This document shows, one piece after another, positions 8,131 through 45,503 of a stretch of 64,000 nucleotides of DNA; within the stretch, counting starts at the first letter, position 1; each line of letters opens with the position of its first letter. Location: positions 186,001-250,000 of the forward strand of contig JABMLP010000010.1 of NCBI GenBank assembly GCA_013176395.1, read 5' to 3'. A model generated the notes under the pieces. The model was not told the origin of the DNA, made no database searches, and saw only the letters and a list, made by a program, of their open reading frames with translations. Source of the stretch: Venturia oleaginea (Eukaryota > Ascomycota > Dothideomycetes > Venturiales > Venturiaceae). The position numbers were made by a program, and so were the translations under genes.

Positions 8131-9689
8131 AGGTCAAGGCCTCTCAACGTAGGTAGACAGCGTCGCCCATCCAGCTGCAGGAACTTTCAGAGCGACTTTC
8201 GAGCATTCCGAACCGTTTCCTTTGTGCCATTGGCCGCGGGAAGATGAAAGAAGATGAAAGATAATGGTGGTGATGTTTGCGAGGTGAGATGCGCATTGGC
8301 ACGTGATTGGGAGCATGCCATATTCTGACTCATCAGCCACGCCAAGACGCGCTAGTAAATCGCATCTACAAACTCTTCAACTCTTGCCCTCCTTCCATTT
8401 CCTCCCCAAGCGTCGTCCTCAACATCGCCACGTTTCTTTGCTACAAACAGACACCCGAGTACCTTGCCGTCACTCAGACAGTCCATCAATCGCAAATGAG
8501 AAATTCGGAGTAATCTCTACCTCTCGCTACCTCTTTTCCCTAGCTTGCAACCATCAGAGCTCTAGCAACTGTCCTTGCGGACCTGGCGCGAAAGCGCTTG
8601 CACACGGCACAAGAAAACTCGGGGCACCCCCTTGCTCTTACGCTTGGGGTGTTGCAACCATGGGAGCCGGTGCTGAGATTGTGTGCATGTCTTTTTGGAG
8701 ATATGTGACACTTTAGTGCAATACGTGGCGTGCTGGAATCCTGCGCTCTACTTGTCCCATGGATAAATGACGTGGATTCCATGTACAATTCGATTCCGAT
8801 TACTCTGTCGAGGACGACGCTTCATTTCTTTTCTTTCAGGTACGTTTGCGCTTGTTATGACGGAGAGACTCATGGATACTACTAATTTACCCACTCGAAC
8901 TTTGCACTAGGTCTTTCTCATTGATATGGCTTTCCCTACGCTGCCTGGGAGCAGTGGAGAGAAATCAGCCATGAACGGCGAATAGCTTCAAGGATTGTAG
9001 CGACAAATTGGCAAGCACTTCCTTGATACATCGCATCACAAGCACCATTTCACCTCCATGCCGCAATCTTCCTCGACATCGAAGACGGTGATAAGATTGG
9101 CCATTTCGACGGAACGGAAGTGTCCAGTCATCTTGCGTCGCTAGTCTCTCCGATCTTCTTCATCAGCAATCAGGCGCTATCAATATCGATCACGGCGGGA
9201 CCGCGTCAATATCGCTGGAGTCACTTCGATCCAACGACCTCGTCCTTTCGCGAGCACCATCCTCTCTCATAAACATTTTTGTGCGCAGTCATGCGTCGAC
9301 CATGGCTGGACAGTCGAATGGTTTGGTTGTGGAGGACGAAATCCTTACTGAAGTCTCCCAGGACGTTGAACTCTAGGAGTTGAACTAGATGTGTGGAGGT
9401 CACGGGAGGAGTGTATGCGCAGCTTTTAAGAGTGTGTCAAGCTATGGTGACGGGAGGAATGATCATGGTCCTCAACAAGGCTTCTGTCTCAGTACCATGT
9501 CTGTCATTCAGCTGGGTCACCTGCTCATGCTACATACAAAGAGCTGTTGTTGAATCCATGTAACCTGTGTCAACATTAGCAGGAATTTAGCGATGGTCGT
9601 TCGTGACTCAACATCCTAGATTATCAATGATAGTCGCAAGGATGTGCACCATCGCTTCTCCCTTTCCTTGCAACGTCAACGTCAATGTC

Positions 9690-11527: not shown

Positions 11528-12408
11528 GACGTTGATCAGAGCGGGAAGATGCTCGCTCGCTCGCTCGCATCTATGATAACCGAAAAGGTTAGTCGCGCAG
11601 TATTGAATGTATTCTGTTGAGGCGGCGACGCGACATATTTATTTCGTAGAGCGAAAGGGCCCGCAAAGCTCGGTACGCGTTTAGATTGGCGGTTCCTAGG
11701 GATTGCGTGTCGCGGATTAGAGTCGGTTTGCAGCTGCAAATTTGCAGAATAATATCCCAATTTGGACGTTTCAGGTCGAACTCATCTTGTAGTGGATGAA
11801 TCGTTAGCTGAGACGCAGAGAAGCTAGAAGCAGATAAGGCTAGAGTCTGTACCGGCTGATAGCAGATCTAGCTATAGTCGATATCGGAAGCTTACATGTT
11901 AGAGAGGCCCGGAACTGCCATGAAACCTGGACTCCACGTAGCGCGAATTATAACTCCCAAAACGATTCTTGCAGACTCAAGAGGAATAGTAGCTACCCAA
12001 TCAAGTAATATGTCTGCTTAGTGCGACGACGGGAGTCTCAGGACCGAATACAAGCAAGGGATCCCTGAACCTAGGCGCTATATTATAAATCTCGAAGCGG
12101 ACTGAGTGCAATCTGCAAATTTGTAGCTGCAGACTCTATTGAGGCGACTGGTCCGAGGAGCCGGACCCCTAATTTGATATATGACACGGGAACTTCAACC
12201 TCGAAGGGATTCAGATTGACCCATCGCAAAGCTATTTCAACAAAGAAAAGATGGAGAACGAAAGACAAAAATGTCGATGAGAGTCGAATTCGGAGTAAGG
12301 GCCTGGTAAAGTTTACACTCGAAAAGTTTCACAGCCCAACTTTCAGTCAAAAAGTGCAACAGCATCACCACCAACAATAAAATACAGCACCAAACAGGCA
12401 AAAACATA
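11528..12408. other. intergenic, nothing recognised
   Basis: Upstream region of the SURNod19 gene and downstream flank of the tRNA gene. A short GCTCGCTCGCTCGC run lies at about 11551-11566. I see no gene or repeat that I can support. Confidence 0.5.
12400..12404 (-). terminator. RNA polymerase III T-run terminator
   Basis: Five T residues on the minus strand start five bases after the discriminator base of the tRNA-Leu gene. This is the normal position and form of a Pol III stop signal and supports transcription of the split tRNA gene by Pol III. Confidence 0.7.
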
Positions 12409-12430
12409 TGATGAGAGTGGGATTCGAACC

Positions 12431-12483
12431 CTGCAGGAATGTTAGTTTTGATTCGAGAAACGTGAAGGATGAGGTTATCGTAC
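12431..12483 (-). other. spliceosomal-type intron in tRNA T stem
   Basis: 53 nt on the minus strand with donor GTACGA, a perfect ACTAAC branch site 13 nt before the end, and acceptor CCTGCAG. Its removal converts a T stem with two mismatches into a perfect five-pair stem GTGGG/CCCAC. Confidence 0.75.
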
Positions 12484-12505
12484 CACGAGGATCACTCCAC
12501 TAGGA

Positions 12506-12526
12506 GTTTGATGCTAAGGATGTTAA
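12506..12526 (-). other. classical tRNA intron (37/38)
   Basis: 21 nt directly after anticodon AAG and G37. It contains CCTTA, complementary to the anticodon-loop TAAGG, the usual anticodon-intron helix recognised by tRNA splicing endonuclease. Confidence 0.7.
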
Positions 12527-12541
12527 CCTTAACCTAGCGCC

Positions 12542-12593
12542 CTGGAAGAATGATTAGAACACATCAAATTGATCTGAGTCAGGGTAGACTTAC
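12542..12593 (-). other. spliceosomal-type intron in tRNA D loop
   Basis: 52 nt on the minus strand with donor GTAAGT, branch-like TTCTAATC 14 nt before the end, and acceptor TTCCAG. Length and signals match introns in the protein genes of this window. Removing it joins TCTAA to GGCGC and restores an ordinary D loop. Confidence 0.7.
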
Positions 12594-12616
12594 TTAGACC
12601 GCTCGGCCATCTCACC

Positions 12617-12980: not shown

Positions 12981-15900
12981 TTATCGATCCAAAGCTTGCG
13001 CTTGGCACTGTCCCCAGTCAGTATGTATACAAGAAACCAAAATGATTGACATACCATGGAATAATACACGCCCTTAGCCTTCAACAAACTCTGGTGATCG
13101 CCCTGTTCAAGAACCTTCCCAGAACCTAGCACGAAGATGACGTCGGCTTTTTGAATGGTAGCCAGACGATGAGCTACGGCGATGATGGTTCTCTCCCCTT
13201 CCCCAGCAGCACGCTCGATCGCCTCCTGAACGAACTTCTCCGATTCAGAGTCCAAGCTTGAAGTGGCCTCATCGAGGAGTAGCACTCTGGGTTTTCGAAG
13301 CAGAGCGCGTGCCAGAGCAAGTCGTTGGCGCTGCCCTCCGCTCAGTGAGACACCCTTTGGACCGAGAGTTGTTGAATAGCCATCCGGTAGCGAAGAGACA
13401 AACTCGTGAATTTGCGCATCTTTGCAAGCCGCATGGATGGCTTCATCGGTCGCAAGCGACGCGTCGACAGAAAGCGCTACATTCTCTCTGATAGTACCTT
13501 CGTACAAAGTCGACTCCTGGGCGACCAAAGAGATGTTGCTGCGATAAGCTCCGACATTCAAGTCTCTGATGTCGGCACTTCCATACGAAATGCTTCCAGA
13601 ATCGGCATCGTAGAAGCGCTCCATCAGAGAAATGATCGTTGACTTCCCACACCCAGTTGCGCCTACCAAGGCGACGAACTGACCGGGCTTGATCGAAATG
13701 CTGAGACCATTCAAAACTGGCACGTCTCTCGTCTTGTAACTGAAGTAAACATCTTTGAACTCAATTCCCACAATGCCTGGATCTGGTGCGCGTGTTTGAG
13801 CTTCATGCTCTGTGTTTTTGTCTCCTGATCGTGAGCTGAGGATGCGGTTTGCGCCAGAAGTGGCTTCAGAAATGTTGGGAGCCATTGAGAACCAAATGCC
13901 AGCAGCTTGGCTTCCTTGCATGAGAGCCATGTAAATGACGAAAAACTGAACCAGGTTGTACTCTTTCGAGCCCATTAGTCTTCCTCCGTACCAGAATATC
14001 AGTGCCTGACAGCCTATCTCCACACTGTCCGAGAGCGCGAAGACAAGCGTGGAGGGCCATGCTTCATTGTAAGCTTTGGAGACGTGAGTATCCAAGAGGG
14101 ATTTGTATCTGTTGATAATGGTATCCTCCATGATGAGGGATGTACATGTGCGAAAAGCGCCAACTGCCTCGGTGGCAAATTGAGAACTTTCTTCGAATAC
14201 TGCGGCGTTCATCTTTTCAAATCGGGTTTCGAGGCGGACGCGAAAAAAGCCTGCGACGAGTACGACGGGTAGAACTGTGCAAGCGCCGACCAAGGACAAC
14301 TTCCAGCCGTAAACGAACGATATGATGAAACATCCGACAAGGTTGAATATCGAGACGTATGCCATAGTCATCTGGCCTCCTGTAGTGTCGTTAGCGGGAT
14401 TTGCTTGGGAATTCCAAGTGATCTTCTCACCTAGAAGCTGCTCAACTTGCGTTGGATCAGAGGAAAGCCTGGAAGTGAGAGATCCTGCTGAGTTACCCTC
14501 AGAGTCAAAATAGACGATGCGTTTACGGATAATGTTTTGCATGTATTCTTGTCGGTAAGCCGTCGTGACCACAGTTGACACTACATGAGCGGCATAACCG
14601 AGGACATAGTACGCAACAAAGCTGCCAAGGGCCATCACAAAGAACATAAGCGACCAGAAGTTTCCTTTGTCAACGAGTGCCTGACCTGTCAATGTAAATG
14701 TTTGGATCAAGTTTGCGAAAAGAAAAGCCTTCCGGGGATTAGCTAAGGCAAGCATAATGGGAGTCAAGATACATACCTGGATCGGATAGATGGCTGTTGA
14801 AGAAGTTAGCGAGAGGTTCTCCTGCGGGGCCAATGAAACATACCTCCTCCTGCAGCAGAACTCAGAACGATCAAGCTGTACAGAATCCAGTGAGAGCGTT
14901 GCTCATATATCAGCCGCCCGAAGCTACGAAAGAAACCAGTGTCTCTGTAGCCCCTTTCGGCTTCAACAGACCCTCGTGTGATTGACTGGACTGTTGCATC
15001 GATGACCTTGGATTTCTTCTCTTCTTGATCAAGAATTTCGTCATCACTAACGATGGTATCAGTAGTCAGACTCTCTGCGCCCATCGAGATGGCCTGAGCG
15101 CGCACAAGACCATAATAGACGCCGTCTTCGTTTTCCAAAAGCTGATCATGGGTTCCTTCTTCCACGAGCTTCCCTTGTCTCATAACGATGATTTTGTCTG
15201 CTTTCTTGATTGTGGCGAGTCGATGTGCGATAACGATTGTTGTGCGATTCTTCGAAACGCGATCGAGGGCGGCCTGCACAATTCTCTCTGTTCGCACGTC
15301 GATCGCACTTGTTGCTTCGTCTAATATGAGGATCTTTGGCTGCTTGACAATGGAACGGGCGATAGCCAGACGTTGCCTTTGGCCACCACTAAGCTTAATG
15401 CCAGATTCTCCCACAAGAGTTTGATAGCTCTTGATGAGGCTGTTAGCAAACTTCGAGAAACATGGTTCCAGGACACACCTGGGGTAGCTTTTGAATAAAC
15501 TCGTCTGCAAATGCCTCCATGCAGGCGTCCTTGACCATTTGAAGCTTCCGTTCCTCCGACAGATTCTCCAAATCGGTGCCACACAATCCATAGGCTACAT
15601 TTTGCCAGATAGTATCGTTGAATAAGAATGGCTCCTGTTGGACGAGTCCGATCTGCGCTCTCCACCATTTGGCGTCGATCTCGGCAAGATCCGTTTGGCC
15701 CACCAAAATTGCGCCTTCGAGGGCAGTTTTTGGAGGCTCAACTTTGATCACTTCGTCTGTCGAGCCAGAATCGTGACTCGCTCCATCTTTCTCCGACGTG
15801 GGCGTCTTCTTTTCCTTCTTCACTTTCTCAGGTGGAGCCTGATGCCTGTGCCTCATCACTTTCATCATGGCGGCAGATGGCTCTGCTTCCGGAACAAGGC

Positions 15901-17481
15901 CGTACCATTTTTCGAGAAGTCCTACAATCGTACTCTTGCCTGATCCAGAAGGTCCTACGATGGCAGTGACCTTTCCCGCTTCGAATTTGAGATTCAATCG
16001 ATCCAATACCTGCACTTCTTTACGACTTGGATACACAAAGGATACGTCCTTGAACGTGATGTCGTGCTCTGTGGAGACCCGAGGAGCTTTCAGCCCGGTC
16101 TGATCTGGTTGAGCTGCATCGATGGTAGCAAGTAATTCGGCCGCGGCGGTCGATGCTTTGGCCATCGAGATGATCGGTGTGGCCAATCGTCCAATTGAAG
16201 CCACGGCCATGACGACCGAAAACAGAACGCTAGTATAGGGTTAGCCCACCCCTTTTTTTTAAGCGACTCAAAAAAACCAACACTGTAATCGGTCCGATGC
16301 CACCAATCGTTCCATTGTTGACCAGTTTGACACCATACCAGAACGCTGCAATTGCATTAGCCATGGCTCTGGACAAGATGGATGTGATGAACTGACCCAA
16401 CGCGAATGTGCCATAAGTGCTGAATAGAACTGGTGACATGAGAAGGCCCATCAAGGGAGAATTCTTCATTTCTGCTTTTCTAGCATCTTCAACAAATTGA
16501 TCATAACGAGATGTCAAACGTCTCTCAGCACCAAATGCCACAACTATTCGTATCGAGCTCAGAAGTTCGAAAGCCAGTGATGATGCTTTCTCGAAGTGTC
16601 TCATGGTGGCAGCATGGTTCTTGAAGAAGAATGGGATAATTGTTCCATAAACAATCAAAATGAAGGGCAGACTGGCGGATGCAACGAGCGTCAAACGCCA
16701 TGATTTGATGAAGCTCACAACATAGAGGCCTATGGTTAATGACAATGCTTGAAAAAACATTGTCAACTGCTGCGAAATGCCTAGCTGGATCAAGTTCGAG
16801 TTTGTCGTGATTCTTGTGGAGATCACGCCAGGAGACACGGTATCGACGACGCTAACAGATTGGTTGAAAAGCGCTTTGATGTAGGCAAACCTCAGGGCTG
16901 CTGATATTCGGAGGCCGCTAATCCTGATGGAAAACTAATGTAGCAGATCAGCTTTGTCGAGTTTTGATGCACTTGTCACGCACCATAGAGATGTAACTGA
17001 GACAAAAACGGCCAATGAAGATGTATACCATCAAAAGCGCCTGGTCCTTCAATGCTTTATCGAATTGTTGGCGAGTCACGCCAGAATCTGGGGTAAAGTA
17101 CCCTGTAAAGTTGCCCACGAGATTACCCAATACTGCAAGTAGTGAAGATTAATCGGTGCCCAGCAAGTGTTGAGCTTCTCACGAAACATACCTACAAACA
17201 TCAAAGGCATAGCCACTCCGGCTCCCACAGCTGTGAGTACGCACAAGCCAACTAAGAAATAGTCCAATTTTGTGCCAAACGATAACACTCGCTGGTGGCG
17301 AGCCCATCAGCATCCTCGACGTTAAAAACATAACATGTATCGAACTTACGAAGAAAGTGCCAAAACTAGAAGGAGCAGCTTTCCTTTCAAATCGCTTGTC
17401 TGCATCCTTCTCCAATTCCGTCTTCTCGCTGACCACAGCTGTCACGCCACTGGCAGAGTCCTTTTTCTTGAAGATGGACAT
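12981..17481 (-). CDS. ABCB-type full-length multidrug exporter
   Basis: One multi-exon minus-strand gene (about 1,300 aa; roughly nine short introns). Order: TMD1, NBD1, TMD2, NBD2, as in fungal P-glycoprotein/Pmd1 exporters. Start ATG 17481 ([12 protein letters not shown]); first introns at 17292-17349 and about 17132-17192. The start of TMD1 contains [12 protein letters not shown]1 has Walker [24 protein letters not shown] and [15 protein letters not shown]1 carries a Lys/Glu-rich insert ([15 protein letters not shown]) just after Walker A, absent from most relatives. NBD2 has GATGCGKST (usual form GSSGCGKST), [14 protein letters not shown] and [12 protein letters not shown]. An in-frame 51-bp intron lies near 14430. 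The last intron is 13008-13054, giving the typical C terminus [12 protein letters not shown] and stop TAA at 12981. Both ATP sites look competent; the substrate is unknown. Confidence 0.9.
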
Positions 17482-21084: not shown

Positions 21085-22052
21085 TCAGTGTATCCCCGTC
21101 TTATTACTAAACCGGTTCTGCACCACCCAGCCCAGCAAGGTCTTCTGATTCTTGCAAATATGGGTGTCTCCCCATCCATCAGTCATCTCCAGGCCCGGAA
21201 CCGCACTCTTGCCTTCCAGCGCCGAGTCTCCGGCACAATACATGCTCTGCCTCAAATAATCAAAGCAATGTGTAACATGCCTCTCCATATCTGCATCGTG
21301 TGATGGGCGTCCGAATCGATACTGTCCATGTGATCGCATAATCATGTAGAGGCAGTGGTACTGATGTAAGTATGCTATGCTGTAGCCGTCGAGACCTGGG
21401 GATGAGGAGAGGTGCCAGGGGCGTTGAAGGGTCGCGTAGGAAGAGGCATTATGGACTGCGACGAATCCGCGGCCGACTGCCAGGCTTGTTAGTTGTTTCG
21501 GGACTCGGGGGAAGAAGAGAGTGGCCGAGGGAGACCTACGAGGCATATCTTTTTCCCATGTTGAGAGGATTTTGTTAAACTCCTTTTCATTCTTGAACAT
21601 TTTTTCGTTTGAGTACCGAGAGTCGTTCATGAAGACTACTTTCTGCGTGGGGACTTTGATACATTAGCAACAAGTTCACATTGATGATTGGGGGACAAAT
21701 CCATACACTCTGGAACAATTTTGTTCACGTCGCCCATCAACTGCCCCTTCGCCTCTACCATGTCCATGACTTCTATCACCTCCTCCTGTGACACGCCTCT
21801 CTTGTACACACAAGTCCGGGCGCTGAAGAAACATGGGTGGGATAGCTGGAAGAGTATTACGACGAATAAGAGAAGATTCAAGCCCAGACTGAGCGGCAGT
21901 AGATATCTCCGTGACTTGGAGGGGGCGTGTAGTGCGCTTTCCGTTCTGGGTAGGTCTATCGAGTCGAAATGATGTAGCATGCCCTTCCTCTCTTCATCTA
22001 TGGTCGAGCAACTTGGGTCCGGACTGTCCTCGTATGGGTTCGTGATTGTCAT
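21085..22052 (-). CDS. UstYa-like (DUF3328) oxidase
   Basis: Two exons, 22052-21707 and 21653-21085; the 53-bp intron (GTATGG...CAAAG) joins VPE to FPTQKVVF in frame. About 304 aa. An N-terminal cytosolic segment is followed by one membrane helix (YLLPLSLGLNLLLFVVILF, about residues 53-72) and a lumenal domain. Both hallmark motifs are present: HQYHC (HxxHC) and HCFDYLRQSMYC. These are the residues proposed to bind copper in enzymes that oxidise or cyclise fungal peptides (ustiloxin, cyclochlorotine). A region around MPRRSPSATLFFPRVPK could be a further in-frame 51-bp intron with a weak donor, which would give the tighter W-x5-P to GRGFVAV spacing of the family. The ATG at 22052 was chosen because the upstream in-frame codon at 22070 is GTG. 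Confidence 0.85.
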
Positions 22053-22734: not shown

Positions 22735-25339
22735 ATGGCAGCTTGCAAGGATTCACCAAGTCATCGTTCATCGCGTCCCTTTAGGGCCCAAGCTACGGAG
22801 AAGTACACAAACATACCTAAAGTAAACACACGCTCCTGAGCCGACTCAACACCCACACAGATACTCCCAAGACGCCTATGACATGATCTCCCACGACTAT
22901 CACTCCAATATCCTCAGCTCGCCTTATGTTCAACGCTATGGACCCAGACCGACCTGGAGGCGCCCTACCAGAATGCGACGACCGAGATAGCGGCCACTCC
23001 AATTGCCTTTCCTGCTGTTGTGGCCGCCCAGAATGTCCCTACCTTCTCCGCTCAACCCGAATACTGGGCCAGGTCCAGAGTGATGCGCAGAAAGCGGGAG
23101 AACTGGGTCAGGTACGTGGACAAACGTGTGCTGGCAGATCCTGGAATGCCAACCAGCATGCATGAAGAATTGACAGCGATTGTGAGCCGTCTATCGGAAA
23201 TGAATAGTTACTGACTTTTCACCACCCTTGTAGGCTCTCTTACATCGCCATGAATTCTACGTCGCAGATGCTGAAAACGATCGAAAACGAATGTTGGAAA
23301 ACCTCGAAACCCTGGAGCAGCAGAAGCGGAGCGTGGAGGAGAGAAATGCGCACACCATCAAAGAGAACAGGAAACTCCTGGATCAACTCGAAAGTCTGAA
23401 TGCTGCCCTTGTGGAGTCGGATTCGAGAATCCTCTCGTTGACTGAATGCTTACGGTCTGCAGAGGCTCAGATTGAGTGGTTGACGGGACTTGCTGCGCGA
23501 ACTGACTTGCTGAACGCCGAGTTAGCGAGGTTTGAGGATGAGCAGGAGGCGTTGCAGCAGACTTTCGAGATCACAAAAGAAGATGAGCGAACGGCAATAC
23601 TGAGGTTTCAGCGTGCGGAGAGAACGATTGCGAGTTTGCAGGATCAGATGGACAGCATTGAGCGGGACGCAAGAGAAGAAAGAGAGAGACATGTTGAGGT
23701 TCTAGCACGTATGGAGAGGAGACGAGCAGTTGAGCTAGAGTTATCGACCGCGGCTGGAAGACTCAAAGGAGCGGCTGCGTCGAAAACATTGCCGAATACC
23801 AAGAATGGAAGCAGCGTGGTTTCGCACTTTGTAAAGGATATCCTACAAGACAACGCGAACCTGCAGCTCGGCATCGTCGAGCTCAAGGAACTACTGGATC
23901 GATCGAATGACGAGGTGGAGAAACTCCGCCAGATGATGGTGCAGAAGGGAGTTCAGGAATCACCACCAGCACTGGCAGCAACTACACCAAACCTGGGAAC
24001 AGAACTCGGATCAAAGGAGTTGCATGTACATCATCATTATCATGCAGCATCGACAATCGAGCAGCCGAAGCCAGCTCGAAAAGAGATCGTACGAAGATCG
24101 CGGAAGAAGCGGATAAGTCTTACGACCTCACATTTTGCACCTCCTTCTGGCACCCATACACCGAGATCGTCTGTTTCCATGGGGCATTTAAATGATCCCA
24201 GCACATCGTCTGCTATATTATCTCAGACATCAGTCACCATTCCCAACCACCGGGCATCGATCAAACGCTGGTCGATGCAGTCCAGTCAGACAGCAATGTC
24301 ATCTGTGCCGAGCTCTCCATACAGCGAGTCCATCTTTGATCGAGTCTTCAGCGACAATGCCACTGATTTGTCACGGCCTACTAGCCCGGAAAGCAATGGT
24401 ACTTTCTCTCCATTGGCCTCGGGACCCATTGAGCCGCGTCATGATTCTGTTTCCCGATTCTCGCTGGATGTTGGGATGAGAACATGTTCGGAAGGAGCAA
24501 TGCCACTATCTCAGCAACTTCTTGGTGCCTCTAGAAGCAAAGGAAAACCGAAACGAGAATCGGCCGGTGCTGAACTTGATCCCCGGTTGAACGGCTATCA
24601 CTCTATCATTCCCGAAGAGGAGAACGAGGAAGTGCAGCAGACAGAATTACAGGTTGAGTCTCAGAGATTCAACCCTAACGTCGTCATGAGACCCGGCCTC
24701 CGCCGAGCTGCTTCAGATGAAAGTCTCATATCTATCTCGGGTATGCATATACACACCCTACAGCCACGGCCTTCGCAACTACTCACTAGCGGTGGCCGAC
24801 GCGTTTTATCATCAGGCAGTTCCCAAGCAGCCTTGACTGGTACGAGTGTTGTTGCCATCCACGCCTCATCACGGCCGTCACACAACAACAGCAGTCTTTC
24901 ATATCTCTCCAGCATCGCAGAATTGCAGCGAAAACCTGCCGGAATTGAGAAGAGAAAGAGCATGAGCAATCTTGGATTCAAAGTCGGCTGGGTTCTTGGA
25001 CGATGGGGTTACGCTGCCTCTGAAACGCCTACCATTACTTCCACTGCCGAGCAAATCGAGCCATCGGAAGGAAGGAAGAACACTGATCGTTCTCAGCCTC
25101 GAGAAACTCGAGGCAGCGAAGGCGTTAATACTCCTAAAGCCACGACGGCCTCTCTCCACTCGATGGATTCGGCCAGGAGTCTACCGCTGACTGGCCAGAG
25201 ACAAATTGTTATGCGGCCGGCTGGAATCAATCAGTCTGGTCCTATTTTCGGTTTTGGGCCCGAGGTCCCGCTGCCCAGAGAACCGATCATCAAATCTCTT
25301 GACGTTGATGCGCTCAGGGAGAGTTTGAGTAGTGACTAG
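22735..25339 (+). CDS. coiled-coil, Ser/Pro-rich conserved fungal protein, unknown function
   Basis: The last exon 23232/23234-25339 is clear; an intron of about 50 bp (GTGAGC...TTGTAG, about 23181-23233) links LTAI to ALLHRHEFYVADAENDRKRM. Residues through about 250 are a long heptad-rich coiled coil (KRSVEERNAHTIKENRKLLD). Next come a conserved-looking SHFVKDILQDNANLQLG segment, an HHHYH patch, a basic RRSRKKRISL patch, then a disordered Ser/Thr/Pro tail and a C-terminal NLGFKVGWVLGRWGY motif. The 5' end is unresolved. The coding frame is open from about 22884 but has no ATG. A tentative first exon at 22735 (ATGGCAGC, ending before GTAAAC at about 22818) splicing to an acceptor near 22953 would fit the phase; that join is a guess. 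No catalytic domain seen; a scaffold or cytoskeletal role is only a possibility. Confidence 0.7.
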
Positions 25340-28153: not shown

Positions 28154-29598
28154 ATGTCTGCCTTTGGTGCGAACAAAACCCGCACGGCACAAAGTGGTCG
28201 CGCAGCAGGCAGACCTCGACCATACAATGCTGCAGACCGCTTCATACCTAACCGCACAGCTAGCGAAGCCATCAACCACATCGGCACCGCCAAACTCGAC
28301 CTTGTCGACTCCATCCACAGCCTCGACTTGGATGACGAAGAAGAGCACACATCCTCATACGCCAAGCCGTCACCAAACACGGTCAAATATAAAGCATCGA
28401 TTGCTTCAGCTTGTGACGTTTCACTCAACCAGCGCATCCTGGCTTTCAAGCCTGCGCCTCCAGAGTCGTCAAAACCAATAGACCTCAGATCTCAATACAA
28501 TCACCCACTCAAGCCCGCCAGTGCAGTCTCAGCTGAGCGTCGTCGCCGCATCCTCACCGCCCCAGAGCGCGTTCTGGATGCACCAAACATTGTCGACGAC
28601 TACTACCTCAACCTTCTCGACTGGTCCTGCAATAACCAAGTCGCCATCGGCCTTGGCCAGTCCGTCTATGTCTGGTCCGCAGAAACTGGAGAAGTCTCCT
28701 CACTACTCGAGAGCTCGTCCGACACATACATCTCCTCGCTCAAATGGAGTGGAGACGGAGCCTACGTCAGTGTCGGCCTCGGTACTGGCGAGGTCCAAAT
28801 CTGGGACGTCGAGGAGCAAACCAAATTACGAAGCATGTTCGGACATGAGTCCCGTGTCAGCGTCATGGGTAAGTTCCTTTACTTGTTCTTCTTTGTATCA
28901 TCTCAGCTAACATCGCCATAGGCTGGAACAAGCACATGCTATCCACCGGCGCTCGCAATGGCTGGCTATTCAACCACGACGTCCGCATCGCGCAGCACAA
29001 GATTGCCGACCTGGAGTCTCACACAGGCGAGGTTTGCGGTTTGGAATGGCGCGCCGACGGCTCTCAACTAGCTTCGGGCGGAAACGACAACTTAGTCTCT
29101 ATTTGGGATGCTCGCAGCTTGCAGGCTCCTAAATTTCAGAAGACTAACCATAACGCCGCTGTCAAGGCCCTCGCCTGGTGCCCATGGCAGCATAACCTCT
29201 TGGCAACCGGCGGTGGTAGTCACGACAAACACATTCACTTTTGGAACACGACCACCGGTGCTCGGGTCAACTCAATCGACACCGGAAGCCAAGTAACCAG
29301 CCTGCGATGGAGCACGCACTACAAAGAGCTCGCTAGCACATCTGGCTTCCCAGACAATTCCATTTCAGTCTGGTCCTACCCAACACTGGTCAAGAACATC
29401 GAAATACCCGCCCACGAGAGCAGGGTGCTACACTCTTGTCTCAGCCCAGATGGCCAAACCATGGCTACTGCTGCGGCAGATGAGAGTTTAAAATTCTGGA
29501 AAATCTTCGAAAAGAAGGCAGGTTCGGGTTCAGTAGGAGGTCTGGCAAGTGCTGGTCGGGAGAAAGAAGGAAAGATTATGGGTCGTACAATCAGATAA
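28154..29598 (+). CDS. cdc20: Cdc20-type activator of the anaphase-promoting complex
   Basis: Two exons, 28154-28868 and 28922-29598, with a 53-bp intron (GTAAGT...CATAG) that keeps the frame across MGWNK; 463 aa. Cdc20 brings substrates to APC/C at mitosis. Seen: a C-box DRFIPNR near residue 30 for APC/C binding; then RVLDAPNIVDDYYLNLLDWS leading into WD40 blades (VAIGLGQSVYVWSAETGEV; GEVCGLEWRADGSQLASGG; HDKHIHFWNTTTGARV; NSISVWSYPTLVKN; TMATAAADESLKFW). The protein ends in the Ile-Arg tail (TIR) that docks on APC/C. The VDDYY and QVAIGL wording fits Cdc20/Slp1 better than Cdh1 (usually DDFY, LGVGL). The N-terminal region before the WD repeats is short compared with yeast Cdc20. Confidence 0.93.
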
Positions 29599-35939: not shown

Positions 35940-36173
35940 CAGTCGAGAATCAGCGAAGCCTTCACCGGCCTCCCAAACATCCTCAGTAGGAGTATGGACC
36001 CCGCTAGGGCCTACAGCGTACCGACTGACTGCCAGAGGTCGGACAGTATCCTCATCAGCTCTACTCAGGAGACCGATGAGCCAGCTGATAGCGATATGGC
36101 AGGAGACAACATGACGGCCGACGGCAACAGGGAAGCGGACCGAACACGGACAACGGGAACACCTAATGTCTAG
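35940..36173 (+). pseudogene. LINE ORF1, last 77 codons
   Basis: An open frame without start enters at the 5' truncation and ends at TAG 36171-36173. It is hydrophilic, rich in Ser, Thr and Asp (for example ISSTQETDEPADSDMAG), and shows no zinc knuckle, which would lie further upstream. The stop overlaps the ORF2 start as ATGTCTAG, suggesting reinitiation or termination-coupled translation of ORF2. Confidence 0.65.
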
Positions 36174-39100
36174 CGAAGCCAGAACATTCGAACTCATACA
36201 GTATAACTGCGGAAACGCAAACTACAAGAAAGCACAACCACTGTTCAAACAGCTCAACCACAAGACCCAGATGGTGGTAGCGATCCAGGAGCCAATGGAG
36301 AAGAACCGAACCACATACTGCCCTCCCGGCTACGCCCTCGCGTACGAACCCAGCCCAGAAAACAAAGTAACTAAGGTCGCGTTTCTAGTCAGCAAAGGCA
36401 TCGACCCGGGGTCGTGGGAGGCCCGATTCTACGGGACAAACGTGATATCCCTGGACATTACACTCGCAGATTTCAACCTTACGATCATCAATGTCTACAA
36501 CCCTATAGCTAACACAGTCCGGCTACCCGCCTGGCCAGACATCGCACGAGCTATTGCAGAGGCCAAGGAAAACTACATCCTTCTTGGGGACATGAACGCC
36601 AAAAACGTCCGATGGGGAGGGGTCGGTACAGCTACGGACCGCCAGGGGACACACCTCTGGGAGAAAGTCGAAACACACGAATTATATATGATGACCGCGA
36701 AAGGTAAACCTACGTGGGAGAGAGATGGGAGGTCATCCGTAATCGATCTAACCTTCGGCACCGAAACGGTAATGGACCGTCTTCGCCTATGCCATCCTGA
36801 ACCAGGCTGGACCCCCTTTGCAGACCACCACCCTATCAGAATCGTCCTCGACGTAACTGCAATACCCCCACGGGCCCCCGACAGGTACGATACATCAAAA
36901 CTCGACGTTTGTAAACTTCAAGAGATGGTTACTTTGGATAAGTGGCAAGAGAAGGAGGACAAAATCCACGGCCTCCAGCAGGCAATTATGAACGCCCTTA
37001 ACAAGCTATGCCCCAAGAAAGGAACAGCGACCAGAGAACGCCGGGATTGGTCCCCCCTCGCGGCTGAGCTACTCCGGGAGAAGAACGAAGCACGAGTACT
37101 CTTAAGGAGGAGACTCTCAGAAACGAACAAGCAGAGAGTCCGCGACACTACACAGGCCCTAACCCGAGAGCTGCGAAGGCTTAGCACCGACAACTGGAGA
37201 GCATTCCTAGACGACTTCTGTGAGAAGTCTACAGAAGCACACGACAAAGGGCTGTGGACGATGAGCAAATGGAGTCGACGAGGCCCGGTACAGCTCCCAC
37301 AAATGCCGAGCCTCGTGGATCCTTCAACAGGAACCAAGAGTAAGAACAAGGAGGAAATCTCCAGAATCCTAGCGACAAAGTTCTTTCCAGGAGACCAAGA
37401 TGCAGACCTCAGCGATACCCTAGAGACGCCGGGAGCGGCCCGCCCATGGGCAACAAAGACAGACAACGAGAAGATACCTAACATCACAGAGGAGCTCATC
37501 GAAGGAATTCTCCAGGATCTACCAAACAACAAGGCCCCTGGCCCGGATCTGATTACTAACGAAGTCCTGAAGATGCTCGCGCCCTGTATTAAGAAACCTT
37601 TCGCCGAAGCGGTACAAACAAGCCTTGCCAATGGAGTCATCACCCCAACCCTCAAGGAGTCGATTACCTGCATACTCAAGAAAGAAGGCAAAGGCGACTA
37701 TACTTCGCCGGGGTCGTACCGGCCTATCGCCCTCGAAAATACGCTCGGGAAAGTCCTTGAAACGATCGTTGCTAGAGAGCTCACTAATGTCGCCGAAAGC
37801 TCGAAGCTACCCTGGAATCAATTCGGAGGGCGCCGTAAGAGGTCTACCCTCTCAGCCATATCGTTCCTCCGGAATATCATCGAAACAGCTTGGAAGACGA
37901 AAAACCACAAAGTAGTATCGATACTAGCTCTAGACCTCACAGCAGCCTTTGATAATGTGTCTCTGAAAAGACTGCTCCATATCCTCTGGCGCAAAGGGGT
38001 AGCGCCGTGGATTATCCGATTCGTGGAAAGCTTCCTCACAGAACGAAAGACCAAGATCTCCTTCACGGGATATAAGAGCGAGTGGTACCGGGCTCGTACC
38101 GGCATCCCCCAGGGCTCCCCTCTCTCCCCTATCCTCTTCCTGTTCTTCGTCTCCGAGCTCCTCGAAGAATTCCTTACCCCTCAAGATAACACAATCGGCT
38201 TTGGGTTCGTTGACGGTACAAACCTCGTAGCCTGGGGTCCCTCGGCAGCGGACAACTGCAGACGACTAGCCGAGGCCCACGAGAAGTGCCTCCTATGGGC
38301 TAGGAGGCACGGCGCAGCATTCAATCCTACGAAGTACCAGCTTATGCATTTCAAGCAGCCAGGCAGCCCCGAGGCCTCCCCGGGAGATATGAAGTCGGCT
38401 ATCAACATCAATGGAGTCTCTACCAAACCAGAGAGTAAGGAGCTCAGACTGCTCGGCGTGTGGTTTGATCCACAGCTCAAATGGGATGCGCAAATAACGA
38501 AAGCAGAGGCTAAGGGAAGAGCAGCGATGGCAGCGATGGGCCGGATAGTTGGAGTCAACTGGGGACCAAGCTTCCGAAAGAGCCGAATGGTCTATATCGC
38601 GGTTGTGCGGCCGACTATGCTATATGGCATCCAGGTCTGGGGGTCAAACGACATCCAGGGAGGAGGAATTATGAGAGCGCCGCTGATGGAACGGATAGAG
38701 AAAGTTCAAAGACAGTGCCTCCGAATGGCTACAGGAGCCTACAAGAGGACACCTCTCGCAGCGATGGAAAGAGAGCTCTGCCTCCAGCCAATACCCCTGT
38801 ATATAGAACAGCTTATCCTGGAGAGGACTGGCTCGGTAGAGAAGGACCCAGTAGAAGCAGAGATGAGAGCTGCTCTCAACAAAATGTGGATAGGAATCAT
38901 GATGGAGGAAAGACCCCGCCGGCCGGCTGGCAGCCGAGGGAGGCCGCCTACGGCCAGATGTAAGCCAGATACGTCTACGGAGAAGCGGGCGAAGAGATAT
39001 ACCCAGAGGAAGGAGGAAGCCAATGACCTCCCGGAGTACACAGCGCCCGAAGGAGAGTACCTCGGGGATATCAATACTGACGGGTGGCGCCGGAGGCGCC

Positions 39101-39795
39101 GGAGGCGGATTACTACCGTACGGAACAATCCTGACAACCCCTACCCGAGGAGGAGGATCACAACGCAAGAAATTGGACCGTACAATGAGATACGCAGCAC
39201 TACTGGCCCCCGACGGTTTCGAGGCGACCCCGCACCGGGAGACCCGGGGCACGCAATCCGAGTAAGGAACTCGAGGAAAGGAGGAAACATCCATAAGCGG
39301 GTTCTACCCAGCAAAATCTCGAAGCTGATGGAAGAGATCTGGCGTACAAAATGGGAAGCACTGGGCCGGAACCGGAGGGCGAAGACTTGGAACGAGCCAT
39401 GGGAGAAGTCCCCAATTGAGCTATACGACGGCCTTACGAAGGTAGAAGCACATACAACGTTCCTACTCCGAGTCGAAGTGCTAGGACTCCGGTCCTGGCT
39501 CGCATCGATACATGTCCCAGGGATTACCCCCGAATGCGAATGTGGATGGCAGCAAGAGACGGTAGAACACATTTTTACGTACTGTACTAGATTCAATAGG
39601 AGAGGCCTATTCAGCGCCAGGGGAGGCTCTCGAGGGGTGAAGGGGCTACTAGGAACGAGGGAAGGATGCAAGGCCGCGACCCAGTGGTTTTTGAAGAATT
39701 CGGTACTCCCATACCTTGCTAGAGCAAACGCAGCAGTAACAGAGAACCGGTCGGGCTTCGGAACGGCGCCGGAGCTGGAAGGCACAGGACTATAA
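36166..39795 (+). CDS. LINE ORF2: AP-endonuclease and reverse transcriptase
   Basis: A single uninterrupted frame of 1209 codons. Residues 1-235 are an APE-type endonuclease with all landmark motifs: IQYNCGN, AIQEP, LLGDMNAKN, SSVIDLTFG and FADHHPI. About 440-760 is the reverse transcriptase: NNKAPGPDLITNEVL, SYRPIALENTLGKVLE, LALDLTAAFDNV, GIPQGSPLSPILFLFF. The catalytic box, normally F/Y-x-D-D, reads FVDG here (Gly codon at 38215-38217), so the second metal-binding Asp is missing and the enzyme should be inactive. After the thumb comes an Arg-rich linker (WRRRRRRRITT), then a C-terminal CCHC-like knuckle CECGWQQETVEHIFTYC. I see no RNase H domain, although many Tad relatives have one. Confidence 0.9.
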   Translation: MSSEARTFELIQYNCGNANYKKAQPLFKQLNHKTQMVVAIQEPMEKNRTTYCPPGYALAYEPSPENKVTKVAFLVSKGIDPGSWEARFYGTNVISLDITLADFNLTIINVYNPIANTVRLPAWPDIARAIAEAKENYILLGDMNAKNVRWGGVGTATDRQGTHLWEKVETHELYMMTAKGKPTWERDGRSSVIDLTFGTETVMDRLRLCHPEPGWTPFADHHPIRIVLDVTAIPPRAPDRYDTSKLDVCKLQEMVTLDKWQEKEDKIHGLQQAIMNALNKLCPKKGTATRERRDWSPLAAELLREKNEARVLLRRRLSETNKQRVRDTTQALTRELRRLSTDNWRAFLDDFCEKSTEAHDKGLWTMSKWSRRGPVQLPQMPSLVDPSTGTKSKNKEEISRILATKFFPGDQDADLSDTLETPGAARPWATKTDNEKIPNITEELIEGILQDLPNNKAPGPDLITNEVLKMLAPCIKKPFAEAVQTSLANGVITPTLKESITCILKKEGKGDYTSPGSYRPIALENTLGKVLETIVARELTNVAESSKLPWNQFGGRRKRSTLSAISFLRNIIETAWKTKNHKVVSILALDLTAAFDNVSLKRLLHILWRKGVAPWIIRFVESFLTERKTKISFTGYKSEWYRARTGIPQGSPLSPILFLFFVSELLEEFLTPQDNTIGFGFVDGTNLVAWGPSAADNCRRLAEAHEKCLLWARRHGAAFNPTKYQLMHFKQPGSPEASPGDMKSAININGVSTKPESKELRLLGVWFDPQLKWDAQITKAEAKGRAAMAAMGRIVGVNWGPSFRKSRMVYIAVVRPTMLYGIQVWGSNDIQGGGIMRAPLMERIEKVQRQCLRMATGAYKRTPLAAMERELCLQPIPLYIEQLILERTGSVEKDPVEAEMRAALNKMWIGIMMEERPRRPAGSRGRPPTARCKPDTSTEKRAKRYTQRKEEANDLPEYTAPEGEYLGDINTDGWRRRRRRRITTVRNNPDNPYPRRRITTQEIGPYNEIRSTTGPRRFRGDPAPGDPGHAIRVRNSRKGGNIHKRVLPSKISKLMEEIWRTKWEALGRNRRAKTWNEPWEKSPIELYDGLTKVEAHTTFLLRVEVLGLRSWLASIHVPGITPECECGWQQETVEHIFTYCTRFNRRGLFSARGGSRGVKGLLGTREGCKAATQWFLKNSVLPYLARANAAVTENRSGFGTAPELEGTGL

Positions 39796-40153
39796 CAGTA
39801 GGTCTTACCTCGATAGGAGGAGGAAGAGGGCGGAAGTGATGCCCCCCAGGGTCCCAAGATCCTTGCCTCGAGGAAATACCACGGACCGGGACCGGACTAC
39901 GCCCGGACTTGGATGGCAATGGACTGAAATGGATACCAGGGAGCTAGGAGAAGCTGCTTAGGCAGTGTTGACCCGGAAACGCTTCGATATATACGAATAG
40001 GATGGTAAAGCTCGCGGATATGCCGCGGGCCGCAGCCGGGGTAGCAAACAAACGGTTTTTGTCCCCGAAAAGAGGGGTTTTTCTTTGTAGATAGAGGATG
40101 TTGGCACAGGCTTAACCTAGCCCTACATACAACAATAAATCCTGACTATTATT

Positions 40154-40203
40154 AATATCTCTTACTATCTCTAATATCTCTTACTATCTCTAATATCTCT
40201 TAC
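40154..40203 (+). repeat. 19-bp satellite fragment
   Basis: About two and a half copies of TTACTATCTCTAATATCTC between the LINE and the gypsy 5' LTR. Its last five bases CTTAC are the left copy of the gypsy target duplication. Confidence 0.75.
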
Positions 40204-40558
40204 TGTTAAGGGATGGAATCCTTCTCTCTAGCTTATCCATGACTGGATTTCCAATTGTTCTCTTGTTATTCTGCAAGCTGTCATGTTCTATTTTGCAAGC
40301 TGTCATGTTCTATTTTGCAAGCTGTCATGTTCTATTTTGCAAGCTGTCATGTTCTATTTCGCAAGCTGCCATGTTCTATTTTGCAAGCTGTCACGTTTCC
40401 ATTTAAAGATACTTTCTAGAAGGATCTATTGTAAGAGGAGGATTATATATACGAGCTATCCTTCCTGTACTTACACTTTCTTCTCTGTACTTAGATACTT
40501 CGAAATACAAGCAGTCTTCTCTCACTTGCGAAACACCTTTGAGGGTTGAACTCTTACA
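40204..40558 (+). repeat. gypsy 5' LTR (355 bp)
   Basis: TGTTAAGGG...CTCTTACA. Contains about six tandem copies of a 22-bp unit (TTTTGCAAGCTGTCATGTTC core) and then a TATA-like ATTATATATACG that probably drives transcription from the R region. It differs from the 3' LTR mainly by two extra 22-bp units (355 versus 311 bp). Confidence 0.9.
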
Positions 40559-41220
40559 TTATCTAAGTACCTCAATCTTACAAAGGAAAAAAGGCTCACA
40601 GAGAGCAAGCTCCAAAAGGAATTTCAAGAAGAGGACACTTGTCCTGATCCAAGAAGCGAGGGCCAACCGAAAGGGCCAAACAGAAAGGAATTTCAAGAAG
40701 AGGACACTTGTCCTAACTCAAGAAGCAAGGGCCAACCTCAAAGGCCAACCGAAAGGGCCAACCGAAAGGGCCAAACAAAAAGGGAATTCAAGAGAATTCA
40801 AGCTGAGATTTTCTAGAAGGTGCTAGAATCTCCAAGAAACAAGGGCCTACCGAAAGGGCCAATCCAAAAAGGGAATTCAAGAGAATTCAAACTGAGATTT
40901 TCTAGAACGTGCTAGAATCTCCAAGAAGCAAGGGCAGGTCATCCTAAGACAGCGTAGTCTTAGGAGTTGAAGCTGTAATAAGCTGAGGAAAGAAAGAGCT
41001 AGGAAGAGAGATTTAATACACTTGGCCTTCACAGTCCCTGGGAGCTCTGTCCTTAGTAATAAGGATTGCAGAGCGGACTATAGTGTAAAAATCCTTCTGG
41101 GATTCTATAGTCACCTTCCTATACTAATAGGCATTGACTCTATACTGCCTAGCAAATCTCTAGAGTAGAGCCTAGGAGTGTGTATAGTAGTGCTCTCTAT
41201 CATCTCTCATAGGTGAAAAT
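40559..41220 (+). repeat. gypsy leader with tandem repeats
   Basis: Untranslated leader. Two partial copies of a unit around GGAATTTCAAGAAGAGGACA (40617, 40687) are followed by two of AGGGAATTCAAGAGAATTCA (about 40780 and 40868), joined by GGCCAACCGAAAGGGCC spacers. I did not find an obvious tRNA-complementary primer site directly after the LTR. Confidence 0.65.
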
Positions 41221-42900
41221 ATGGAAGGAGAAGATCAGGAACAAAGAGTTCCTCAAGAACCCCAAGCCCTACAAGAAGCTATGGCAGCATTACAACATCA
41301 ACTAGCCATTCAGAACGATGCTATTACGCGTATTCTTACAATCTTGCCTAACACTACTCGCTCTGAGAACGTAGTAGAAGGACAAGAGACTAAGAATCCA
41401 CAAAAAGACAGAATACATAGGAAGAAAGCTGTACTTCCTAAGCTCCAAGAATTTGATGGCAAGCGTTCTGAATGGGCTCAGTGGTTTCAACAAGCAAGGA
41501 TGAAGTTGGAGATAGACGCAGAATCTATAGGGGATAGTAGAAACCAATTTGCCTACATCTTCTCCTCTCTACGAGGCTTCGCAGCTCAGGCTACTCTGGC
41601 CTACGTAAAGACAGCTCCAGAGGAAGATAAAACGGGACAGAAATTGTTACAGTATATGGACAACTTCTATGGCGATCCAGTACAACAACAAAGAGCTACT
41701 GTAAGCCTGTCCACAATCAAACAAAAAGAGAAAGAACCCTTCTTCTCTTTTCTTCCCCGTTTTGAAACCACTCTTGCTAATGCTGGAGGAATGACTTGGC
41801 CTGACGCTGTTAAAATTGCATTTCTACACAAAGCAATAAATCAAGAGCTGCGAAACCAGAGAATAGGCCAATCTCAGAGTACCTCCTACCAGCAGTTTGT
41901 GTCCGATCTTTTGAATACAAGTATGCAAATCACTACAGCAAAGATGCTCTCTTCCTCAGAAGATAAGTTACGATTCAGAGATAAGGAGAAGTCTTTTAAA
42001 AATCTGAACGCTATGGACTGGGAGCCTACACGCGTAAACAAGTTAAAAATTTCGTCTAAAGCCTATGAATATAGGAAGGCAAATAACCTCTGCTTACGCT
42101 GTGGGAAGGCCGGCCATAGAATGAAAGACTGCTGGTTGGATACAGAGGTAGAAAGAGTCACGCAACTTGGTTCAAAAAGGGCCAAAGGAACCACTGAGGA
42201 GAATGAAGAAGTTGAAGAAGAGGACTACTCGGAAAAAATAGTAGCCTCTATCCAAAGTCGTGGATGGAGGCGTAGAGTAGATAGAGCAAAATTGTCGAAG
42301 GAGTCAATTGAGAGGGTAAATAGTATTTTGAATTCGAACAAAGACAGTGATTCACACCGTTCTCGGATAGAAAAAGAATGGAAGCAGTTCAGACCCAAGA
42401 TGCTCTCCCGCCTTTTCTACACAAATACTATAGTGAACGATATATACTCTCTTAAAACTCTCCTTGATAATGGATCTAGCTGCTACGCATCAATAAACGA
42501 GGAGAAAGCTTCGCAGATGGATCTTGAAGTACTCCCTATTAGTCCGCGTACTATAGGTGGAGTTCTTAAGGAAGAAGGACAGACCCAAGTGACAAAAATT
42601 GCGAAGTTGAACCTAGATTTAGGGGGACTTATATGCAACGCTTTTGCTTATATAGTCCCGGGACAATTTGAGGATCTTCTACTAGGCAGGCCTTTTCTCA
42701 AGGACACCAAAGCCGTTATCAATGAATCTAAAGGTACTCTTACCTTTGCAAACGGGATTAGCATTCGCGATGCTAAATTTGAAGACAAACTTGATATACA
42801 ACAAGTAGCGCCCGTAAGATTCCACCGCCTTGTCACTTCTACACTTGAGAAAATCAAAGACGCCTCTAGAGTATTTGCTGTTACTCTTCGAGATAATTGA
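41221..42900 (+). CDS. gypsy Gag plus protease region
   Basis: 559 codons. An N-terminal Gln-rich segment is followed by a retrotransposon Gag domain (about residues 75-260; [46 protein letters not shown]). One intact zinc knuckle [14 protein letters not shown] (C-x2-C-x4-H-x4-C) lies near residue 295. An acidic linker follows. A retropepsin-like segment [17 protein letters not shown] lies near residue 415, with D-N-G where D-S/T-G is usual, and a second strand [17 protein letters not shown]. The frame ends at TGA 42898-42900. The pol frame is shifted by one base, and reading past GAGAT into ATTGATATTGCC would make one continuous Gag-Pol. Confidence 0.85.
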
Positions 42901-43346
42901 TATTGCCTTGAAGCCGAAAGTCCCTTTGACAACAGAGCAAATACTGGAATTGCTACCTAAGAGGTTTCATAAGTACGCTGCTGTCTTTGATCCTAAAAGG
43001 GCCGAGAGACTACCACCGCATCGCCCTGGGATTGATCACGAAATACCTATAGAAGAAGGAAAACCACTTCCTTGGGGACCTCTATATGGTATGGGTCGAG
43101 AACAACTCCTTGTTTTGCGAAGGACTCTTACAGAGCTACTAGATAAAGGCTTTATCCGAGAGAGTAAATCAGTTGCTGCGTCTCCAGTTCTCTTTGTGAA
43201 GAAACCAGGAGGGGGCTTACGCTTTTGCGTAGACTACCGAGCCTTAAACGCAATTACTCGAAAGGATAGGTACCCGCTACCGTTAGTAAAAGAGACTTTA
43301 CTAACCTTAGCTCGTGCTAAGTATCTTAGTAAGCTTGATGTAAATG

Positions 43347-44749: not shown

Positions 44750-45266
44750 ATGCTGCCTTCCACAAGATTCGAATCGCAACGGGAGATGAGTTCAAAACTG
44801 CCTTTCGAACTAGATATGGTCTATTTGAATGGCTAGTTACTCCCTTTGGCTTAACCGGTGCACCTGCATCTTTTCAACGGTATATAAACTATATCCTTCG
44901 ACGATACCTAGACGAGTTCTGCTCAGCTTATCTAGACGATATAGTAATATACTCTTCAAAGAACCTTAAAGACCATGAAGAAAAGACTGAAAAGATACTT
45001 CAAAGCTGCCTTAACGCTGGGTTATACCTTGATATTCGGAAGTGCGAGTTTAATACCAAACGAGTCAAGTATCTAGGCTTCGTTATAGATACTGAAACGG
45101 GCCTACACATGGATCCGGAGAAGATCAAAGCAATTAAAGAATGGGAACGTCCTACTAATCTACGAGGAGTACGTGGCTTCCTAGGCTTTACAAACTTCTA
45201 CCGTGACTTTGTAAAAGATAACTCAACAATAAGGGAGCCTCTGGTTCGCCTTACAAAGAAGAATAC

Positions 45267-45498
45267 TGTTACGCTGAACGAGCAAAACAGAGTTATTCGG
45301 AAGTAGATTCAACACGAACTTAACGATAGGAGCCGATGAACAGAACGAGTGTCACCCTGTGACTTGACTGTATTGACTGAGGAGGTTATCGTACACCGTA
45401 GCATCTGCATGCATATATATGCATGTCAATGCATTCCTTGGCATCTATCACGTGCACTATGCCTGAGGTATCAAGGACTGGCATGCCACTGTTCAACA
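45267..45498 (+). mobile_element. 232-bp solo LTR inside gypsy pol
   Basis: TGTTACGCTGAACG...CTGTTCAACA, with TG...CA ends and an exact 5-bp duplication AATAC on both sides (45262-45266 and 45499-45503). Deleting it plus one copy restores TKKNTPFLWGKEQ, the expected join from RT connection to RNase H. It contains a palindromic ATGCATATATATGCAT. No coding sequence, so it is a lone LTR or a very small TRIM-type element of a family not otherwise seen here, apart from sharing TGTTAC with the solo LTR at 33.4 kb. Confidence 0.75.
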
Positions 45499-45503
45499 AA
45501 TAC

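Follow-up and report, generated by a model that had tools for sequence, protein, structure and literature searches.

The ribosomal DNA of some ascomycetes carries spliceosomal introns, and a paper from 1993 reportedly, by its title, concerns an mRNA intron in 18S rDNA. Among small structured RNAs, U3 and U6 are the only ones named as often intron-interrupted in the consulted portion of a 2017 paper (PMC5832005). Removal of introns from nuclear tRNAs is held to be the work of a dedicated endonuclease and ligase (PMC4090602, in the part consulted), and ectopic tRNA introns of the bulge-helix-bulge (BHB) type are described in algae in the accessible part of PMC3978253. Here, a tRNA-Leu(AAG) gene in a 64-kb stretch of Venturia oleaginea DNA (referred to as the window) was analysed, together with the tRNA genes of the complete assembly (46 Mb, 61 contigs). 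The sequence indicates, with a probability put at about 0.9, that the window gene is a working tRNA gene interrupted by two ordinary spliceosomal introns of the U2 type. Most of the other interrupted tRNA genes, of which there are at least 26, are best read in the same way.

The window gene extends over 208 nt, made up of 82 nt of mature tRNA and introns of 52, 53 and 21 nt, and is arranged 5' to 3' as an exon of 23 nt, the 52-nt block, an exon segment of 15 nt, the 21-nt anticodon-loop intron, a segment of 22 nt, the 53-nt block and a final exon of 22 nt (Table 1). The preliminary description held that the tRNA pairs only once the two blocks are removed, and the coordinates that it gave proved to be exact. 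ARAGORN returned no tRNA from the unspliced 64-kb window, whereas excision of the 52- and 53-nt blocks resulted in a complete tRNA-Leu(aag) whose acceptor stem includes one G-U pair and which has the standard 21-nt anticodon-loop intron that had also been described. By reading, a CCTTA within the latter could pair with the anticodon region. The elements TGGCCGAGCGG and GGTTCGAATCC, which we take to be the A and B boxes, are uninterrupted, as is the T5 terminator run; here too the initial account was accurate. Many genes were modelled wrongly when ARAGORN was combined with automatic removal of GT-AG blocks, and a stricter fold score was therefore written. The window tRNA-Leu scores 28.1 after removal of the GT-AG blocks, the uninterrupted tRNAs of the genome scoring mostly about 25-30. 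A chance origin of the cloverleaf was ruled out by a scan of 1160 tiles on both strands of the window, in which GT-AG blocks of 45-75 nt were removed singly (27,420 cuts) or in pairs (125,243 cuts) without revealing a second place in the 64 kb with a tRNA fold score of 18 or more.

Table 1. Coordinates of the window tRNA-Leu(AAG) gene and of the mRNA introns used as a yardstick.
Feature	Position in window	Strand	Remarks
tRNA-Leu(AAG) gene, class II	12409..12616	(-)	Two GT-AG introns and one canonical 37/38 intron
Exon 1	12594..12616	(-)	Mature nt 1-23; contains A box
A box TGGCCGAGCGG	12599..12609	(-)	Uninterrupted; by reading
D-arm intron	12542..12593	(-)	52 nt; GTAAGT...CTAAT...CCAG; between positions 22/23
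Branch-like CTAAT, D-arm intron	12553..12557	(-)	12 nt 3' of branch A
Exon 2, 5' part	12527..12541	(-)	Contains anticodon AAG
Canonical anticodon-loop intron	12506..12526	(-)	21 nt
Exon 2, 3' part	12484..12505	(-)	Contains long variable arm
T-arm intron	12431..12483	(-)	53 nt; GTACGA...CTAAC...GCAG; between positions 51/52
Branch-like CTAAC, T-arm intron	12441..12445	(-)	11 nt 3' of branch A
Exon 3	12409..12430	(-)	22 nt
B box GGTTCGAATCC	12420..12430	(-)	Uninterrupted; starts exon 3; by reading
T5 run	12400..12404	(-)	Pol III-type terminator
mRNA intron, CDC20/Fizzy-like gene	28869..28921	(+)	53 nt; GTAAGT, CTAAC, TAG
mRNA intron, ABC transporter gene	14794..14843	(-)	50 nt; protein homology
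Four further ABC transporter introns	15430-15478, 16230-16281, 16935-16983, 17133-17191		Protein homology

The window contains several other recognisable features. A nuclear RNase P RNA gene lies at 8415-8815 (+) (Rfam RF00009, 49 bits), in which no clear GT-AG insert was apparent by eye. The ABC transporter adjoining the tRNA gene has its best match in Tothia fuscella (57%), with Venturia proteins at 45-46%, and a NUDE-like protein encoded at 23291-25336 is 80% identical to that of Venturia inaequalis, 79% to that of V. nashicola and 83-84% to two further sequences; these protein identities point to Venturiales. Long ORFs at 36166-47724 (+) resemble, by eye, a non-LTR reverse transcriptase, retrotransposon gag/pol and a DNA transposase, and an ORF with a Pfam UstYa match is present at 21088-21630 (-).

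The size, donor, branch and acceptor of both blocks had been likened to those of mRNA introns, a comparison that is upheld by the donors GTAAGT and GTACGA, the branch motifs CTAAT and CTAAC and the acceptors CCAG and GCAG. The six mRNA introns located in two genes of the window are of similar character, with lengths of 49-59 nt and, in five of six, a CTRAY motif 11-13 nt from the intron end; that in the CDC20/Fizzy-like gene is one of seven in-frame placements, selected by a protein motif. Genome-wide, GT-AG ends are found in all 37 introns of the tRNA genes by selection, and since they served as the search criterion the ends alone prove little. Among signals outside the selection, a G at +5 is present in 34 of the 37 introns and a perfect CTRAY (5/5) in 31, with the best branch motif lying 10-13 nt from the intron end in 34. 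When insert-free related tRNAs were used to place the ends, GT-AG was one of the placements that tied for best (one to six in number) in 23 of the 24 comparisons. These covered 23 introns, the T-arm intron of the window gene being compared twice. The sole exception was L110, the D loop of which differs in length from that of its reference. Some references were genes for another isoacceptor, namely an intact Leu-CAA gene for the D arms of the AAG and CAG genes, and others were interrupted genes in spliced form, restricted to arms in which they lack an insert. Near-equal donor or acceptor choices in four genes (L043, L069, L109 and L110) were set by hand from related tRNAs. A structure-only test that permitted any cut placed GT-AG among the best-scoring ties in 14 of 31 cases (D arm, 4/16; T arm, 10/15); this test is too loose, particularly for D-arm introns, and was replaced by the comparison with insert-free tRNAs described above. 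Stem pairs that span an intron are standard in 288 of 292 cases and non-standard in four (26 genes, L066 being left out).

That mRNA-type introns reside in a Pol III tRNA gene, as the preliminary description proposed, is very likely right, and the window locus does not stand alone: the 37 GT-AG introns are spread over at least 27 tRNA genes, which represent many isotypes. Eighteen of these genes have one such intron, eight have two and one has three. The introns are 47-89 nt in length (median 53, n=37), and 19 are located in or beside the D arm, 16 in the T arm and two in or at the anticodon stem, with none of the 37 in the acceptor stem or variable arm; the clustering near the A and B boxes, in and around the D and T arms, is perhaps partly a search bias. 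A canonical 37/38 intron is additionally present in 21 of the 27 genes. The most heavily interrupted gene, L142, encodes a tRNA-Leu(AAG) and has three GT-AG introns plus a canonical intron of 34 nt, its spliced product scoring 28.6. At L142/L144 (C59, about 99900-100190), use of the assigned acceptor of one intron would mean skipping an AG closer to the branch A, at a distance of only 5 nt. Spliced fold scores of 26 of the 27 genes are between 25.1 and 29.5, which is the range of intact genes, and the remaining gene, L066, which is counted among the 27, lacks one T-arm base and scores 20.1. A T4 run within 40 nt is present in 22 of 25 interrupted genes and absent in three, as against absence in 10 of 48 intact genes. 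The B box is split by introns of L041 and L122, and the A box is interrupted by introns of L057, L130 and others; an intron at these sites should weaken the Pol III promoter. The B-box-splitting intron of L041 (C60:649647 region) itself contains the B-box-like AGTTCGAATGC, which may be due to chance. The interrupted Leu(TAG) gene at L111 (C23:763620-764260) has as its neighbour a further B box accompanied by an incomplete, tRNA-like copy.

The set was assembled by several searches. A genome search with the window locus as query recovered two further copies with a D-arm insert. The gene list is a lower bound, another search having been scored for 63 of 1697 candidates. A 14-base core motif, with one mismatch or fewer, matched nine places, comprising five tRNA genes and four non-tRNA sequences (25 in the reversed-pattern control), and added two copies, a fourth that has both inserts and a divergent fifth whose insert is in the T loop. 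A scan for a B box followed by a T run gave 148 matches, 100 of them listed (reversed-pattern control, 49), and a second such scan gave 50, all listed (control, 11), while a search with a tRNA query was scored for the best 40 of 78 candidates. A search for the D-arm junction without insert, three mismatches being allowed, gave 11 matches, the same number as its reversed-pattern control. Because the controls also yielded matches, these were accepted only after individual reading. Excluded from the 27 were L118 and L121 (broken stems), L098 (T loop one base short) and L097, L058 and L105 (ambiguous), as well as L092 (C19) and L113 (C60), near-identical tRNA-like sequences on two contigs that probably represent a dispersed repeat. 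Uninterrupted tRNA genes number at least 50, of which 48 are nuclear genes from 49 loci (one not folding) and two are further ones.

Every one of the six Leu(AAG) genes found has one or more GT-AG introns, and both genes found for Leu(CAG) and both for Pro(CGG) are interrupted. The same is true of the single genes found for Leu-TAG, Glu-CTC, Arg-TCT, Arg-CCG, Ile-TAT and Gly-CCC. Intact copies are present for Leu-CAA, Ser-AGA, Ser-GCT, Lys-CTT, Ala-AGC, Ala-TGC, Gly-TCC and Glu-TTC. An uninterrupted tRNA-Leu(AAG), the presence of which would bear directly on the standing of the window gene, was not encountered in three non-exhaustive searches: the 14-base core with one mismatch or fewer yielded none; the D-arm junction with up to three mismatches yielded none but recovered intact Leu(TAA) and Leu(CAA) genes; and the spliced 82-nt query gave partial matches only. 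The window copy and L037 were absent from the matches of the last search, which was therefore of limited reach. The matches listed included no gene for a Tyr, Cys, Trp, Val-AAC, Arg-ACG or Pro-AGG tRNA; such genes may be hidden by introns, or may merely lie beyond the limits of the searches or have been missed by ill-suited queries.

It could be supposed that the interrupted copies are dead tRNA genes with insertions, and that intact copies serve translation. Eukaryotic tRNA genes with an insertion in the D or T arm have mostly been regarded as pseudogenes, according to the consulted part of PMC4090602, and intact copies do exist for several isoacceptors, such that their interrupted counterparts could be dispensable. 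Furthermore, L066, L121, L098 and L118 appear decayed, and the searches for intact copies were non-exhaustive. Nevertheless, this explanation is improbable. It is difficult to reconcile with the Leu(AAG), Leu(CAG) and Pro(CGG) families, in which every gene found is interrupted, or with the six isoacceptors represented by one interrupted gene. Moreover, exons are conserved while introns drift. Exons of paralogues with the same anticodon are identical at 73-82 of 81-82 positions, those of the AAG copies within the genome at 76-82 of 82, and the spliced window gene is identical to L003 at 82 of 82 bases. The D-arm introns of the latter pair are unrelated (identity of 0.39, versus 0.48 for shuffles), and the T-arm block is absent from L002 and L003, both of which run uninterrupted through CTCGTGGGTTC. 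Thirteen comparisons of intron cores stripped of their signals, partly non-independent, were not clearly above shuffles (z from -2.9 to 1.6), and canonical introns vary also (6/17 to 17/21 identical), but the splice and branch signals persist in introns that are otherwise saturated. Stem changes flanking an intron likewise retain pairing, with two-sided changes within isoacceptors at A3 in L041/L142, at A5 in L043/L140 and at A4, A5 and T52 in L089/L114; some of these may be older than the introns. Pseudogene decay as a general answer was rejected on the fixed GT-AG ends, the conservation of exons and the intron-spanning pairs.

If the genes are alive, the blocks might still leave the transcript by another route, as ectopic introns cut by the tRNA splicing endonuclease in the manner of Cyanidioschyzon or the Guillardia nucleomorph. 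D- and T-arm introns, several per gene, are known from those lineages in the parts of PMC3978253 and PMC4090602 consulted, and the insertion sites overlap those observed here. This would, however, be very surprising in view of the pairing potential at the intron ends: the BHB central helix, which was scored alone without the outer helices, has three or four of four pairs in 11 of 32 introns, compared with 12.8 expected with shuffled partners, and is thus at shuffle level. To our knowledge, the endonuclease route requires neither GT-AG ends nor a CTRAY motif at a fixed distance. Just as little credence is given to the blocks being recent, mobile introner-like elements spread by transposition, whether spliced or not. 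Their presence or absence does differ among paralogues and their sizes are fairly uniform, but among 32 tRNA introns one pair alone matches at E <= 0.01, over 13 nt, and hence no sequence family is seen among them. An introner-like origin would in any case be compatible with splicing.

Under the preferred reading of spliceosomal introns in working genes, Pol III would transcribe the entire window gene, from the intact A and B boxes through to the T5 run, and the spliceosome would remove the D-arm and T-arm introns in the nucleus. The cloverleaf could presumably form only after both had been removed, and once it is formed RNase P, RNase Z and the tRNA splicing endonuclease, the last acting on the 37/38 intron, could complete the tRNA. 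The introns themselves may have arisen by reverse splicing or another route of gain. It is probable, on the gene complement described above, that decoding of several codons in this fungus, including the leucine codons CTT and CTC, depends on the spliceosome.

If so, the Pol III transcripts of 27 genes would need mRNA-type splicing, and those of 21 of the 27 endonuclease splicing as well; the L142 transcript would lose four introns via two unrelated machines to arrive at 82 nt. Pol III transcripts would be routinely spliced, and a requirement of essential tRNAs for the spliceosome would tie translation capacity to splicing. The introns would in addition form a class of tRNA intron removed by the spliceosome, would attest to Pol III genes having gained introns in a wave, and would offer natural insertion sites of known sequence at which reverse splicing as a source of new introns could be probed. 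Software that finds tRNA genes or filters out pseudogenes can overlook such genes; ARAGORN, for example, reported no tRNA in the raw DNA of the first three copies (L001-L003).

Introns of the genome extend also to U6. At least seven U6 matches are present (best 47 of 2907 candidates scored). By reading, L135 (C12:1178060-1178290) is a U6 snRNA gene with one GT-AG insert and L136 (C36:59810-60040) a U6 snRNA gene with two; the inserts have CTAAC 11-12 nt from their ends, and one is located directly 3' of ACAGAGAA. The U6 gene at L138 is uninterrupted, three more full-length U6 matches occur in the genome, and L137, only a fragment of U6 that may hold an insert, was left out of the count. The introns of L135 and L136 show that the introns of this genome reach another class of Pol III gene. 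Introns in U6 are of a known kind and provide a precedent for Pol III transcripts.

No paper on spliceosomal introns in tRNA genes was found by title or start of abstract among the matches listed from the open-licence PMC literature, a body to which preprints and subscription papers do not belong, in agreement with the preliminary description, to which no such tRNA was known; PMC4090602 contains no word beginning with "spliceosom". The introns reported here resemble those of fungal U6 snRNA and U3 snoRNA genes in being short, with GT-AG ends and a branch motif, in genes for small structured RNAs, but differ in that the hosts are tRNAs of many isotypes, with up to three GT-AG introns in 82 nt and an ordinary tRNA intron besides. 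They share with those of ascomycete rDNA the mRNA type and a non-coding host RNA, although the latter is a Pol I transcript and not a tRNA. As described in the consulted parts of PMC3978253 and PMC4090602, Cyanidioschyzon merolae and the Guillardia theta nucleomorph have introns in the D, T and anticodon arms, several per gene; those introns, however, are of BHB type or of undefined structure, with lengths of 3-24 nt in Guillardia, whereas the introns described here are 47-89 nt with GT-AG ends and a branch motif. The canonical 37/38 intron differs from all 37 GT-AG introns in position, size, signals and presumed enzyme. The mechanism is of a known kind, that of spliceosomal introns in small RNA genes, and the tRNA hosts are new to the literature searched.
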